Source: Candidatus Desulfopertinax cowenii (GTDB taxonomy: Bacteria; Bacillota; Desulfotomaculia; Desulfotomaculales; Desulforudaceae). Taken from it: a DNA stretch of 64,000 nucleotides. The stretch is taken from contig MPOA01000006.1 in the NCBI GenBank assembly GCA_001899445.1, positions 744,001 through 808,000 of the forward strand. Direction: 5' to 3'. How positions within the stretch are numbered: the first letter of the stretch is position 1; each line of letters opens with the position of its first letter. Shown here piece by piece: positions 9,252 through 24,382 of the stretch. A model generated the notes under the pieces. It was not told the DNA's origin. It made no database searches and saw nothing but the letters and a program-made list of their open reading frames with translations. The position numbers were made by a program, and so were the translations under genes.

Positions 9252-10217
9252 ATGCGGGTTGTAAACAAAAAGCTGGTAACCGTTGCCGTAGCCCTGTTAT
9301 TCACCGTCGCGTTTCTAGTTTCCACTGTTTTCGCGCACGCCAATGTACCTTCCGCCGCTGAAACCAGGCTGATCGAGGGGATAAACGAGGCCCGGCAGAG
9401 GGCCGCGGTGGAGCCCCTGGTTCTGAGCGGCCCCCTGTCTGACGCCGCCCGGGCCTATCTCGCGCACGGTTCAAATGTTTTCCAGTCGATGCGCGCGCAA
9501 GGGATATCCTACCGTTACGCCTGCGCGATGCGCGCCGGGACCGCGAACGTTGACCTATTGGTCTGGGTACTGACCAGGTCGACTTTATCCCAGGTCATGC
9601 TGTCCCGCTACGATCAGGCGGGCATAGCAATCCAGGGCAACTGCACAGTGCTTATCCTGACCGGCGGGGGCCTCCCGGCCCCGCCGCCGCAGCCGCAACC
9701 GGAACCTGAGCCCCGGCCGCAGCCCGAACCCGAGCCCCGGCCTGAACCCAGACCCGATCCTCAGCCGCAGCCGAAACCTGGGCCCCAACCCCAGCCGCAG
9801 CCTGAGCCGCCGGCCAGGCCGGGCCATGCCATGACCGCATATGAGGCCAAGGTTGTGGAGTTGGTGAACGCCGAACGGGCCCGGTACGGACTGAAGCCTT
9901 TGGCGGTTGATCTCCAGCTGGCGAAGGTGGCTCGACTGAAGTCCGAGGATATGCGGGACCAGAGGTACTTCTCCCACACTTCCCCGACCTACGGTTCCCC
10001 GTTTGCGATGATGCGGCGGTTCGGGATCACTTACCGGATGGCCGGCGAGAATATCGCTGCCGGGCAGCGTACCCCGGAAGAAGTGCTGCGGGGCTGGATG
10101 AACTCTCCCGGGCACCGGGCGAACATCCTGAACGCCAACTTTACCCATATCGGCGTGGGGCACGCGGTGGGCGGCAGCTACGGTAATTACTGGACGCAAA
10201 TGTTTATCGCTAAATAG
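9252..10217 (+). CDS. Secreted CAP/SCP-like protein with a degenerate second CAP domain
   Basis: 321-aa exported protein. A signal peptide (to about residue 30, cleavage near FAHA) is followed by a degenerate CAP-like region (~32-140), a long Pro-rich PxPxPE linker (~140-195) and a canonical YkwD-type CAP domain (~198-321). The C-terminal domain keeps the CAP hallmarks SHTSP, AGENIA, W-MNSPGHR-NIL and YWTQMF. The N-terminal region parallels it (LIEGINEARQRA with VVELVNAERARY; MRAQGISYRYA with MRRFGITYRMA) but lacks the active-site His and Glu. ATG 9252 follows GGAGGTC. CAP proteins of this type are common in spore-formers, including coat and germination roles; the exact role is unknown. Confidence 0.85.
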   Translation: MRVVNKKLVTVAVALLFTVAFLVSTVFAHANVPSAAETRLIEGINEARQRAAVEPLVLSGPLSDAARAYLAHGSNVFQSMRAQGISYRYACAMRAGTANVDLLVWVLTRSTLSQVMLSRYDQAGIAIQGNCTVLILTGGGLPAPPPQPQPEPEPRPQPEPEPRPEPRPDPQPQPKPGPQPQPQPEPPARPGHAMTAYEAKVVELVNAERARYGLKPLAVDLQLAKVARLKSEDMRDQRYFSHTSPTYGSPFAMMRRFGITYRMAGENIAAGQRTPEEVLRGWMNSPGHRANILNANFTHIGVGHAVGGSYGNYWTQMFIAK

Positions 10218-21014: not shown

Positions 21015-21434
21015 CTAGGCGGCAAACCCTTCCCCGCGAGCCGCTTCCGACAGTCTGCGGTCGAAACTCAAGACCCGTAATTCAGGAAATCTATGCGCTA
21101 CCGTTTTCGCCATGGCCAGATGCCATAAGTCTGCCCCGCGCAGGGACCACTTTTTGGCCAACACTTGAAACAAGCTCCATTCGGGAAGCAGGTTCAAGCG
21201 TTTCCACGGGCCAGCTTGGAGTTCTGCCTGCACCTTTTTGACTAGGTTTGGCATATTCGACTCCCGCTGCACGCGCTGCAAAACGGCCTGCACTTCGGCG
21301 AAAGCCAGGGATGAGATCAGGTGGTCGCCATTTGTTCTCAGCCAGCTCAGGGCTTTTTCGGTATGTTCGTCTTCCAGCAGGGCCGAAATCAGGGCCGATG
21401 TGTCCCAATACAACAGTACAGGGTTGCCTACCAT
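21015..21434 (-). CDS. vapC: VapC-type PIN-domain toxin
   Basis: 139-aa predicted ribonuclease toxin. The four acidic PIN residues are visible: Asp11 (YWDTSAL), Glu47 (AFAEV), Asp102 (RGADLWHLA) and Asp125 (LSFDRRL). PIN toxins cut tRNA or rRNA when the antitoxin is lost. The gene start overlaps the antitoxin gene by 7 bp, the usual coupled arrangement. The true start may be a few codons internal. The active site appears intact. Confidence 0.88.
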   Translation of the reverse strand: MVGNPVLLYWDTSALISALLEDEHTEKALSWLRTNGDHLISSLAFAEVQAVLQRVQRESNMPNLVKKVQAELQAGPWKRLNLLPEWSLFQVLAKKWSLRGADLWHLAMAKTVAHRFPELRVLSFDRRLSEAARGEGFAA

Positions 21435-21721
21435 TTGTTTCTATCCTCACGCAGAATCCGTTGGGCGGATGTCCCGGGCACCATAACCGGTTTGGGCAGT
21501 CGGGGTTTGCAGGACAGGGGAGACACAAGGCCCTGTCGTTCCATTTCCAGCAGCCTTTCTCTGAGAGAAAGGGCCTCTTTTTCGATCGGTACAATTCTGG
21601 CGGTCGGTATGCCCCTTTCGGTAATGATCACCGCTTTGCCCGCCCGTGCATACCGGAGTAACTTACTCAGCTTCGCCTTGGCTTCGCGAACACCCACGCT
21701 GATTTCTTCCACGGCCACCAC
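21428..21721 (-). CDS. vapB: Phd/YefM-type antitoxin
   Basis: 97-aa antitoxin with an N-terminal Phd/YefM DNA-binding fold (VGVREAKAKLSKLLRYARAG, VIITERGIPTARIVPI) and a C-terminal toxin-binding tail. GTG 21721 is the likely start. A palindrome directly upstream (21727-21743) is the expected autoregulatory operator. The pair is a self-contained accessory module inserted between the ABC operon and tusA. Confidence 0.87.
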   Translation of the reverse strand: MVAVEEISVGVREAKAKLSKLLRYARAGKAVIITERGIPTARIVPIEKEALSLRERLLEMERQGLVSPLSCKPRLPKPVMVPGTSAQRILREDRNKW

Positions 21722-22093: not shown

Positions 22094-23161
22094 TTAATGA
22101 GCGAACACTTTTACCTTGGACAAGGCGAGGCCGATGGCCAGCGCCACCGCGAATCCGGCGACCACGGCGATCTGCCCGTTGACCGGGACCCCCGCCGGGC
22201 TGGCGGCCAACCCGAAGTTGTGGGCGAAGGCTGCTCCGATCAGAGCACCCAGGACGGTGACCGCCGAGTCGGTGTTGCCTTCGGCGGCGGAGACCAACTG
22301 GCGCAACGGGCAGCCGGCGACCAGGGTGAAACAAAGGCCCGCCAGGGCAAGGCCCAGGAAGTTCCACAGGCCATCGGCGTGGGCAATCGGCTGACCGACA
22401 AACCCGACGTTGAAGTTGCTGATGATCAGATTGCCGGCCAGCGCGGCCACAAAGAGGCCGGCCATGCCGAATAGCAGGTAGGAGTCGCGGAACATGATCA
22501 TGTCCCGGATGGGACCCACCAGGCAGAACCGGGCCCGCTGGGCCAGCACACCGACCAGCAAGCCGGCCCCCAGGGCGAGCGGAAGCGGGGCGCGCATGGC
22601 GGCGGGACCTTCGGTGCTGAACTGCAGGTGGGCGAAATTAACGAACAATAAGACCAGCAATATGCCCATCAGGGCGGGAAACACGTAGCCGTGCGCGTTG
22701 CTTTGACGGGAGGCCCGGCCCAGGGTGAAGCCGCGGTTGATGAACCAGATGCCGAGAGCGATGCCCCCGGCGAACCCGGGGAGGGCGACCCAGGCGTTGA
22801 GATCTCCGGCCGACATTCGGATAAGCATCCGCATGGGGCAGCCGAGAAACACCAGAAAACCGATCATGCCGATAAACCCCAAAGCAAACCTGGTCAGGGC
22901 GCTCGACCCGCCCATGGTCCGAAACGACTTCGTGGCCAGGGCGGCCACAAAGGCCCCGAGCACGATCCCGATAATCTCCGGCCGGACGTACTGCACGGGC
23001 GCGGCGCTGTGCAACCCCAATCCCCCGGCGATGTCCCGCAGGAAACAGGCGATGCATATTCCCATGTTCTTGGGATTTCCGGCCGCCATCAGGATGACGG
23101 CCAGGGCGCCGATGGTCAGGCCGGTGAGGGTGACCAGACCTTTCCCCTTGAACGGCAACAA
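22094..23161 (-). CDS. yedE: YedE-family putative selenium/sulfur transporter
   Basis: 355-aa polytopic membrane protein of the YeeE/YedE family with about ten helices in two homologous halves. Each half carries a Cys-containing signature: GCPMRMLIRMSAGDLNA in the first and GCPLRQLVSAAEGNTDSA in the second, plus ICIACFLRD and RARFCLVGPIRD. The first is characteristic of the YedE group linked to selenium metabolism; thiosulfate-importing YeeE is a relative. TTG 23161 follows AGAGGTGA. It begins 30 nt after the 3' end of the SelC-like tRNA on the same strand, so both probably come from one transcript. Confidence 0.88.
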   Translation of the reverse strand: MLPFKGKGLVTLTGLTIGALAVILMAAGNPKNMGICIACFLRDIAGGLGLHSAAPVQYVRPEIIGIVLGAFVAALATKSFRTMGGSSALTRFALGFIGMIGFLVFLGCPMRMLIRMSAGDLNAWVALPGFAGGIALGIWFINRGFTLGRASRQSNAHGYVFPALMGILLVLLFVNFAHLQFSTEGPAAMRAPLPLALGAGLLVGVLAQRARFCLVGPIRDMIMFRDSYLLFGMAGLFVAALAGNLIISNFNVGFVGQPIAHADGLWNFLGLALAGLCFTLVAGCPLRQLVSAAEGNTDSAVTVLGALIGAAFAHNFGLAASPAGVPVNGQIAVVAGFAVALAIGLALSKVKVFAH

Positions 23162-23191: not shown

Positions 23192-23285
23192 TGGAGGAGG
23201 GAAGTGGGAATCGAACACCACCCCGGCTGATCCAGCACGGCCAGCGGATTTGCATTCCGCGGGGAGCACCAGCTCCTTTCCCTCC
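23192..23285 (-). tRNA. SelC-shaped minor tRNA-Cys (anticodon GCA)
   Basis: A 94-nt cloverleaf read from 23285 to 23192, with CCA encoded. The acceptor stem is 8 bp (GGAGGGAA with TTCCCTCC), the D stem 5 bp (GGAGC/GCTCC) with a 4-nt TGGT loop, and the anticodon stem GCGGA/TCCGC with loop ATGCAAA, so the anticodon is GCA. A long variable arm (tRNA nt 46-63, about 7 bp with one bulge) follows. The T arm has the canonical loop TTCGATT and a 5-bp stem interrupted by one bulged U (nt 69). The long acceptor, small D loop and long variable arm are selenocysteine-tRNA traits. The anticodon and discriminator U73 are cysteine traits. It lies between the LysR gene and yedE; a -10-like TATGAT stands about 55 bp upstream. 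Confidence 0.85.
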
Positions 23286-23386: not shown

Positions 23387-24271
23387 CTAGGGCTTAACGA
23401 AGGAAAGAAAGGCGTGGGTTGGCCTGGAGGGCGTCCGGTTGCGCGGGTAAATCAAGTATAAGCTCCGGGAAAGGTCCAGATCCTTTAGGCTGCGTAGTTC
23501 GATCCGGCCGGCGAGCGCCGCCTTTTCGGCGGCCCAGCGAGAGGCGAAGGAAATGCCCAGTCCCGCTTCTACGGCTGCCAGCACCGACTCGGTGCTACCG
23601 AACTCCCCGGCGATCTGGAGGCTGTCCGGGGGCACGCCGGCGGCGATCAGTTTTTCCTCGATGACCCGGCGGGTTCCGGAATCGGGTTCCCGGACGATCA
23701 ATTTTTCCCCGACCAGGTCGTCGGCCACCAGTTCCGCCCGGGTGCCCAGGGAGTGGCCCTTAGGAATGATCAGCACCAGTTCATCGTTTAGGAACGCGGT
23801 GCAGTTAATCTCGGCGCAGTTCACCGGGGCCCCCACCACGCCGAGGTGGATGGCTTCTTCGTGGAGACGGTTCACGATTTTCCCGCTATTGCTTACCTCC
23901 AGCGAGACGTCTACCAGCGGGTACTCCTTTTTAAATTCGCTGATCAGTTTCGGTAGAACGTAGTGGCCGGGAATGGTGCTCGCCCCGATGGCCAGGCGCC
24001 CTTTCACGTCCTCGGCGAACGAGCTGATCTCTTCTTTTGCCCTCTGGGTGATGGCGATGATCCGCTTGGCGAAATGGTGGAGCACGATTCCCGCGTCGGT
24101 CAGTTCCACCCGGCGGCTGGTGCGGTTCACCAGTTTGGTGCCGTAATGGGCCTCCAGCATGGCGATATGTTTACTCACTGCAGGTTGGGTCAGGTTTAGG
24201 ACGTGAGCGGCCCGAGAAAAGCTCTTGTGCTTGGCCACCATGACGAAGGTTTCTAGGTAGTTGAGGTTCAT
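23387..24271 (-). CDS. LysR family regulator, probably of the YedE-TusA locus
   Basis: 294-aa regulator. The N-terminal winged helix (residues 1-60, YLETFVMVAKHKSFSRAA, LTQPAVSKHIAMLE) is followed by a periplasmic-binding-type effector domain (~88-294). Similar regulators are annotated as associated with selenium metabolism, which fits the neighbours. The ATG at 24271 gives the family start; six codons lie upstream in frame. The gene is on the same strand as, and upstream of, the tRNA-yedE-tusA unit and divergent from the threonine dehydratase gene. The ~110-bp AT-rich gap to that gene is the likely operator region. Confidence 0.85.
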   Translation of the reverse strand: MNLNYLETFVMVAKHKSFSRAAHVLNLTQPAVSKHIAMLEAHYGTKLVNRTSRRVELTDAGIVLHHFAKRIIAITQRAKEEISSFAEDVKGRLAIGASTIPGHYVLPKLISEFKKEYPLVDVSLEVSNSGKIVNRLHEEAIHLGVVGAPVNCAEINCTAFLNDELVLIIPKGHSLGTRAELVADDLVGEKLIVREPDSGTRRVIEEKLIAAGVPPDSLQIAGEFGSTESVLAAVEAGLGISFASRWAAEKAALAGRIELRSLKDLDLSRSLYLIYPRNRTPSRPTHAFLSFVKP

Positions 24272-24382
24272 AAGGACACGCTCCATCAAATTTTTTAATT
24301 AATTATATTATTTTTTGTTATTTGTGCAATAAATCTTTTGTCGGATCCCGGGAAAAATGAAGGTTAGCAGGGGAGGTAAGTC

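Follow-up and report, generated by a model that had tools for sequence, protein, structure and literature searches.

Introduction

The selC* tRNA-Cys genes were reportedly surveyed by Mukai in 2017, where related 8/4 tRNAs are said to have been treated as Ser and His isoacceptors, and the names tRNA-ReC and tRNA-ReU reportedly come from the abstract of the 2018 work of Vargas-Rodriguez. In a review, the selC* tRNA-Cys of Firmicutes and other anaerobes is described as having a GCA or UCA anticodon, U73 and a bulged T stem (PMC7609411). The tRNA of D. nigrificans (Desulfotomaculum) is reported, in the passage of PMC11415595 that cites Vargas-Rodriguez 2018, to insert Cys at Sec UGA codons and to be carried by SelB, not by EF-Tu. 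Here we analysed a stretch of 64,000 nt from Candidatus Desulfopertinax cowenii (the window), in which positions 23192-23285 are a real second tRNA-Cys and a member of the known selC*/tRNA-ReC kind. A preliminary description of this tRNA had suspected that the class might be known already, which the review bears out (PMC7609411); its statement that the role is not known is outdated, since reports now exist of SelB-mediated insertion of Cys at Sec UGA codons.

Results

Structure of the SelC-like tRNA-Cys

The minus-strand sequence of the gene is GGAGGGAAAGGAGCTGGTGCTCCCCGCGGAATGCAAATCCGCTGGCCGTGCTGGATCAGCCGGGGTGGTGTTCGATTCCCACTTCCCTCCTCCA. Its parts are given below; the two ends, the anticodon and the discriminator were read from the sequence, and the variable and T arms were placed by folding.

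23192..23285, minus strand, selC*-type tRNA-Cys (tRNA-ReC), 94 nt including the encoded CCA
23192-23194 and 23285, minus strand, CCA and 5' end
23278..23285, minus strand, 5' strand of the acceptor stem, 8 bp with 23196-23203, all 8 pairs formed
23263..23276, minus strand, D arm, 5 bp, 4-nt loop UGGU, 100% of cells paired among relatives
23244..23260, minus strand, anticodon arm, 5-bp stem, loop AUGCAAA
23251..23253, minus strand, anticodon GCA
23223..23240, minus strand, long variable arm, 7 bp with one bulged U, loop GAU
23204..23221, minus strand, T arm, 5 bp, bulged U at 23217, loop UUCGAUU
23192..23195, minus strand, discriminator U73 (23195) and encoded CCA (23192-23194)

The body is that of a tRNA-Sec in its long acceptor stem (GGAGGGAA/UUCCCUCC, 8 bp) and long variable arm, the T stem has a bulged nucleotide (GUGG-[U]-G/CCCAC, the U at 23217), and the Cys identity elements GCA and U73 are present. 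All the SelC-like features claimed in the preliminary description hold (94 nt, 8-bp acceptor, 4-nt D loop, variable arm, bulged U, GCA, U73 and CCA). The folding energy is -44.6 kcal/mol (z = -2.8), and the covariance model check for tRNA-Sec that had been proposed gave a match of Rfam RF01852 to 23196-23285 at 50.2 bits (E 1.8e-8), above the gathering score of 47. A true tRNA-Sec (selC, with UCA and G73) was ruled out by GCA and U73, a canonical tRNA-Cys (7-bp acceptor, short variable loop) by the SelC-like fold and the absence of an RF00005 match, and an allo-tRNA (Ser) by the SerRS elements (G73 favoured), in place of which U73 and GCA are found.

ARAGORN did not report the gene in the 64-kb window, and it is absent from the 43 tRNAs found with the general tRNA model RF00005 at E ≤ 0.001. 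Standard pipelines would therefore omit the gene or label it as tRNA-Sec. ARAGORN called one tRNA in the window, a tRNA-Pro(TGG) of 99 nt at 9726-9824 (minus strand), which is probably false: its cloverleaf is poor, it is embedded in GC-rich, repetitive coding sequence, and it has no RF00005 match.

Distribution and conservation

Eight of eight genomes of the family carry the SelC-like tRNA-Cys, with 88-94% identity in those other than the source genome. In the family alignment 96.6% of the paired cells are standard pairs, so that close relatives retain the stems and the loss that would have spoken against a functional tRNA is not seen, and a compensatory UA/CG change was found in the variable arm. 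Occurrence in all eight genomes, pairing and compensatory change together indicate that the gene is not a product of chance. A covariance model was built from the eight family tRNAs and run on 113 genomes of the class; from its hits, those with U73 were picked, which gave 72 copies in 64/113 genomes and 17 families, and 71 of these copies could be parsed. The anticodon is GCA in 69/71 and ACA in 2/71, and the acceptor has 8 bp in 69/71. The T stem is bulged in 67/71, with varying letter and position, and the bulge is absent from three of the eight family members. Of the traits that the preliminary description proposed to follow in relatives, GCA and U73 are kept and the bulge is not universal. 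The two ACA copies, L102 (G025) and L110 (G029), lie directly before yedE; both genomes have GCA copies as well.

A few further copies occur in other classes of the same phylum. By a pattern scan of named genomes we found matches in Desulforudis, Ammonifex, Desulfovirgula, Desulfofundulus and Desulforamulus, and also in Actinomycetota such as Solincola; the matches L143 and L164 (Rhodothermales) and L141 (Actinomycetota) do not have this CCA/U73 body and were excluded. A selected set of 38 class genomes was tested, and all 38 have true selC and SelB; the SelC-like tRNA-Cys or its UCA form occurs in 36 of them. Co-occurrence with the Sec trait is uninformative as evidence, because SelB is found in 109/113 class genomes.

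Selenium genes around the tRNA

The tRNA lies between two genes on its own strand:

22094..23161, minus strand, yedE, putative selenium transporter (TIGR04112 seleno_YedE, 479 bits)
23387..24289, minus strand, LysR-type regulator of the selenium-metabolism subfamily, upstream of the tRNA (NF040786 LysR_Sec_metab, 296 bits, cut-off 250)

The yedE start codon follows the CCA of the tRNA by 30 nt, with a Shine-Dalgarno sequence (AGAGGTG) in the gap. No terminator-like site was found between tRNA and yedE, and no strong sigma-70 promoter was found ahead of the tRNA at the scan threshold. Downstream of yedE, a Phd/YefM antitoxin and PIN-domain toxin pair occupies 21015-21721 (minus strand).

Among the 72 class copies, 23 from six families have YedE closely downstream, and for a further 9 it is found no more than 20 kb away; shared ancestry was left uncorrected, and the 23 linked loci do not count as 23 independent events. 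The other 49/72 copies are without an immediately downstream YedE, and dependence on YedE was ruled out by the presence of SelC-like tRNA-Cys in genomes that lack it. Of 13 true selC genes from this class, none had YedE or LysR as a neighbour within the examined flanks. Other neighbours in relatives include SelD and genes of the SAO operon, some copies adjoin a double-cubane reductase and its activase, and YedF and LysR_Sec are neighbours in actinomycetes or other clostridia. In one Actinomycetota MAG (L136) the order is gltX-cysE-tRNA-cysS, and the tRNA lies 20 nt before the cysS open frame. The linkage theme is met again, with other genes, in other phyla. Genes for YedE, LysR_Se, YedF and 2-hydroxyglutaryl-CoA dehydratase/activase were tied to selenium metabolism by Zhang et al. 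2015 (PMC5322559), and in the light of that gene set the varied contexts of the tRNA form one selenium theme. In the archaeon Methanococcus maripaludis, selenium depletion raised yedE mRNA by 5.3 log2 (PMC11097638). At G049:C8:78813-82044 a second SelB gene adjoins yedE, in a genome with two SelB genes.

In family f16, five genomes (G085, G088, G095, G105 and G107; loci L117, L120 and L122-L124) carry a tRNA with the same body and UCA and A73, which is presumably the tRNA-ReU described from Pelotomaculum. These UCA/A73 tRNAs are located between saoC and saoX, with the true selC elsewhere in the genome, and at the corresponding saoC-saoX site of G094 (f16) there is a tRNA with GCA and U73. The anticodon does not track the codon of saoC, the gene covered by this comparison within the SAO operon: in 6/6 loci, be the anticodon GCA or UCA, the SaoC reading frame closes with two Cys codons.

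Partner genes in the same genome

The preliminary description had advised a search for a normal tRNA-Cys and a true selC in the genome, and both were found: an ordinary tRNA-Cys at G000:C6:461733 and selC at G000:C6:180706-180795 (UCA, G73, 75.3 bits). The tRNA at 23192-23285 is therefore an extra gene and not the sole tRNA-Cys, a finding that would have spoken against the preliminary description. By eye, the D stem has 6 bp in this selC versus 5 bp in the SelC-like tRNA-Cys. In the true selC of several class genomes, the source genome included, the eighth acceptor pair also appears non-standard by eye (G or A facing G).

One SelB of the source genome scored above cut-off, with further TIGR00475 hits below it, and CysRS is encoded by a single gene, as in each of six genomes tested. 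No second selB or cysS stands beside the tRNA, which is flanked by LysR and YedE, and no dedicated second SelB or CysRS was found in the genome. As to UGA targets, formate dehydrogenase was rejected because TIGR01591 had no match in the source genome, and FlpD was used instead. In-frame TGA codons occur in two FlpD/MvhD genes, in each case aligned with Cys of two paralogues and followed by a stable SECIS-like hairpin. Sec UGA sites on which a SelC-like tRNA-Cys could act are thus available.

Loss of U33

Decoding tRNAs need U33, and it is present in each of the 39 ordinary tRNAs of the source genome that were checked. Among the 71 parsed SelC-like copies U33 is kept in 65 and replaced by C in five and by A in one. 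The six U33-less copies still have GCA and U73, and in at least four genomes that are >90% complete (G014, G071, G079 and G066) the U33-less copy is the only one found. Several adjoin selenium genes (YedE, LysR_Sec, SelD or double-cubane reductase), and for this reason they do not look like decaying genes. It is above all the loss of U33 that the known mechanism does not account for.

Discussion

Taken as a whole, the tRNA-ReC recoding account (CysRS charging, SelB delivery, Cys for Sec at UGA, and a back-up at low selenium) is in our judgment probably correct for this tRNA. The ordinary CysRS would charge it with cysteine by way of GCA and U73, the selenocysteine-tRNA body would keep it off EF-Tu and bring it onto SelB, and SelB would carry the Cys-charged tRNA to SECIS-marked Sec UGA codons, where GCA would pair with UGA despite a third-position mismatch and cysteine would replace selenocysteine. 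Co-transcription with yedE next to the LysR_Se regulator would cause the tRNA to be produced when selenium is scarce. For the source copy, we infer SelB delivery and Cys insertion at UGA from the D. nigrificans relative. Probable co-transcription with yedE beside LysR_Se, together with the rise of archaeal yedE mRNA (PMC11097638), makes a back-up role in selenium shortage most likely. In favour of recoding are the conserved SelC-like body, GCA and U73 (64/113 genomes), the presence of all partners, the UGA targets and the selenium-gene linkage; against it stand the GCA-UGA mispair, the loss of U33 in 6/71, the 49/72 copies without immediately downstream YedE and the occurrence of the tRNA in genomes that lack YedE. 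Of the specialised uses suggested earlier (regulatory, suppressor or non-translational), it is the suppressor that matches the D. nigrificans tRNA as reported in the passage of PMC11415595.

A non-ribosomal role, in which the CysRS-charged tRNA serves selenium/sulfur metabolism or regulation as a Cys donor or sensor, would account for the change of U33 to C or A with CysRS elements retained (6/71, at least four being sole copies), in a background where the 39 ordinary tRNAs of the source genome all have U33, and would suit the selenium and cysteine gene neighbours, including the cysE-tRNA-cysS order of an actinomycete. We nevertheless consider it improbable, as U33 is retained in 65/71, the operon has no aminoacyl-tRNA-using enzyme and UGA decoding is reported for a close relative in the cited passage of PMC11415595. 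The 30-nt spacing to yedE, the Shine-Dalgarno sequence in the gap and the lack of a terminator, with similarly tight spacing before yedE in 23 loci and before double-cubane reductase in two, could also mean that the tRNA fold is a cis-acting leader in the yedE 5' region, which would control yedE via RNase P/Z cleavage or CysRS binding; this we regard as quite unlikely, because many copies have no immediately downstream gene and the CCA end, of no need to a leader, is retained throughout.

Judged by GCA and U73, the gene might simply be an additional ordinary tRNA-Cys that is borne by EF-Tu and reads UGC/UGU codons, and related 8/4 tRNAs were reportedly seen as Ser and His isoacceptors by Mukai in 2017. 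The genome already has an ordinary tRNA-Cys, the selenium-gene linkage would be left unexplained, and an EF-Tu route is reported to be absent for the D. nigrificans tRNA in the same passage of PMC11415595, all of which makes this reading very unlikely. Aeromonas salmonicida has a tRNA-Sec that reads cysteine codons and likewise joins a SelC body to GCA (PMC11415595); that ours is another such tRNA-Sec is hardly to be expected, given U73 in place of G73, the SerRS-favoured form of tRNA-Sec (PMC5330540), and a D stem of 5 bp versus 6 bp in the selC of the source genome.

Under the recoding account, this would be a natural example of a codon whose meaning may shift from Sec to Cys with the supply of selenium. 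The recurrent placement of the tRNA in operons that contain a selenium transporter, a selenium-type regulator, SelD, YedF or cysE-cysS offers a direct and testable link from selenium status to recoding. It is possible, although we rather doubt it, that these tRNAs belong to a LysR_Se selenium-starvation regulon in which the U33-less forms recode via an altered anticodon-loop geometry or act off the ribosome. What our survey adds to the known kind is the repeated placement in selenium-uptake operons, which may have been mentioned earlier; the selenium-operon linkage and the U33 loss deserve follow-up.

Compared with bacterial tRNA-Sec, the source tRNA is alike in fold and in its RF01852 match above cut-off, and differs in anticodon, discriminator and its 5-bp D stem. 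The Pelotomaculum tRNA-ReU is of the same build, with UCA and A73 where the source tRNA has GCA and U73. The selC* tRNAs of Syntrophobacterales and Desulfobacterales are also SelC-like Cys tRNAs; these orders have a second selB, and Desulfobacterales also UCA and a second cysS (PMC7609411), whereas the source genome has one SelB and one CysRS. The closest counterpart is the tRNA-ReC of the D. nigrificans type, with which our tRNA shares the SelC-like body, 8-bp acceptor, bulged T stem, GCA and U73, the presence in addition to a true selC, and the bacterial class. The published selC* consensus has A51a as the bulge, whereas that of the source tRNA is a U near the T loop; and in distinction from the D. 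nigrificans type, three close relatives of the source tRNA are without the bulge, and the source tRNA itself is set between LysR_Se and yedE.
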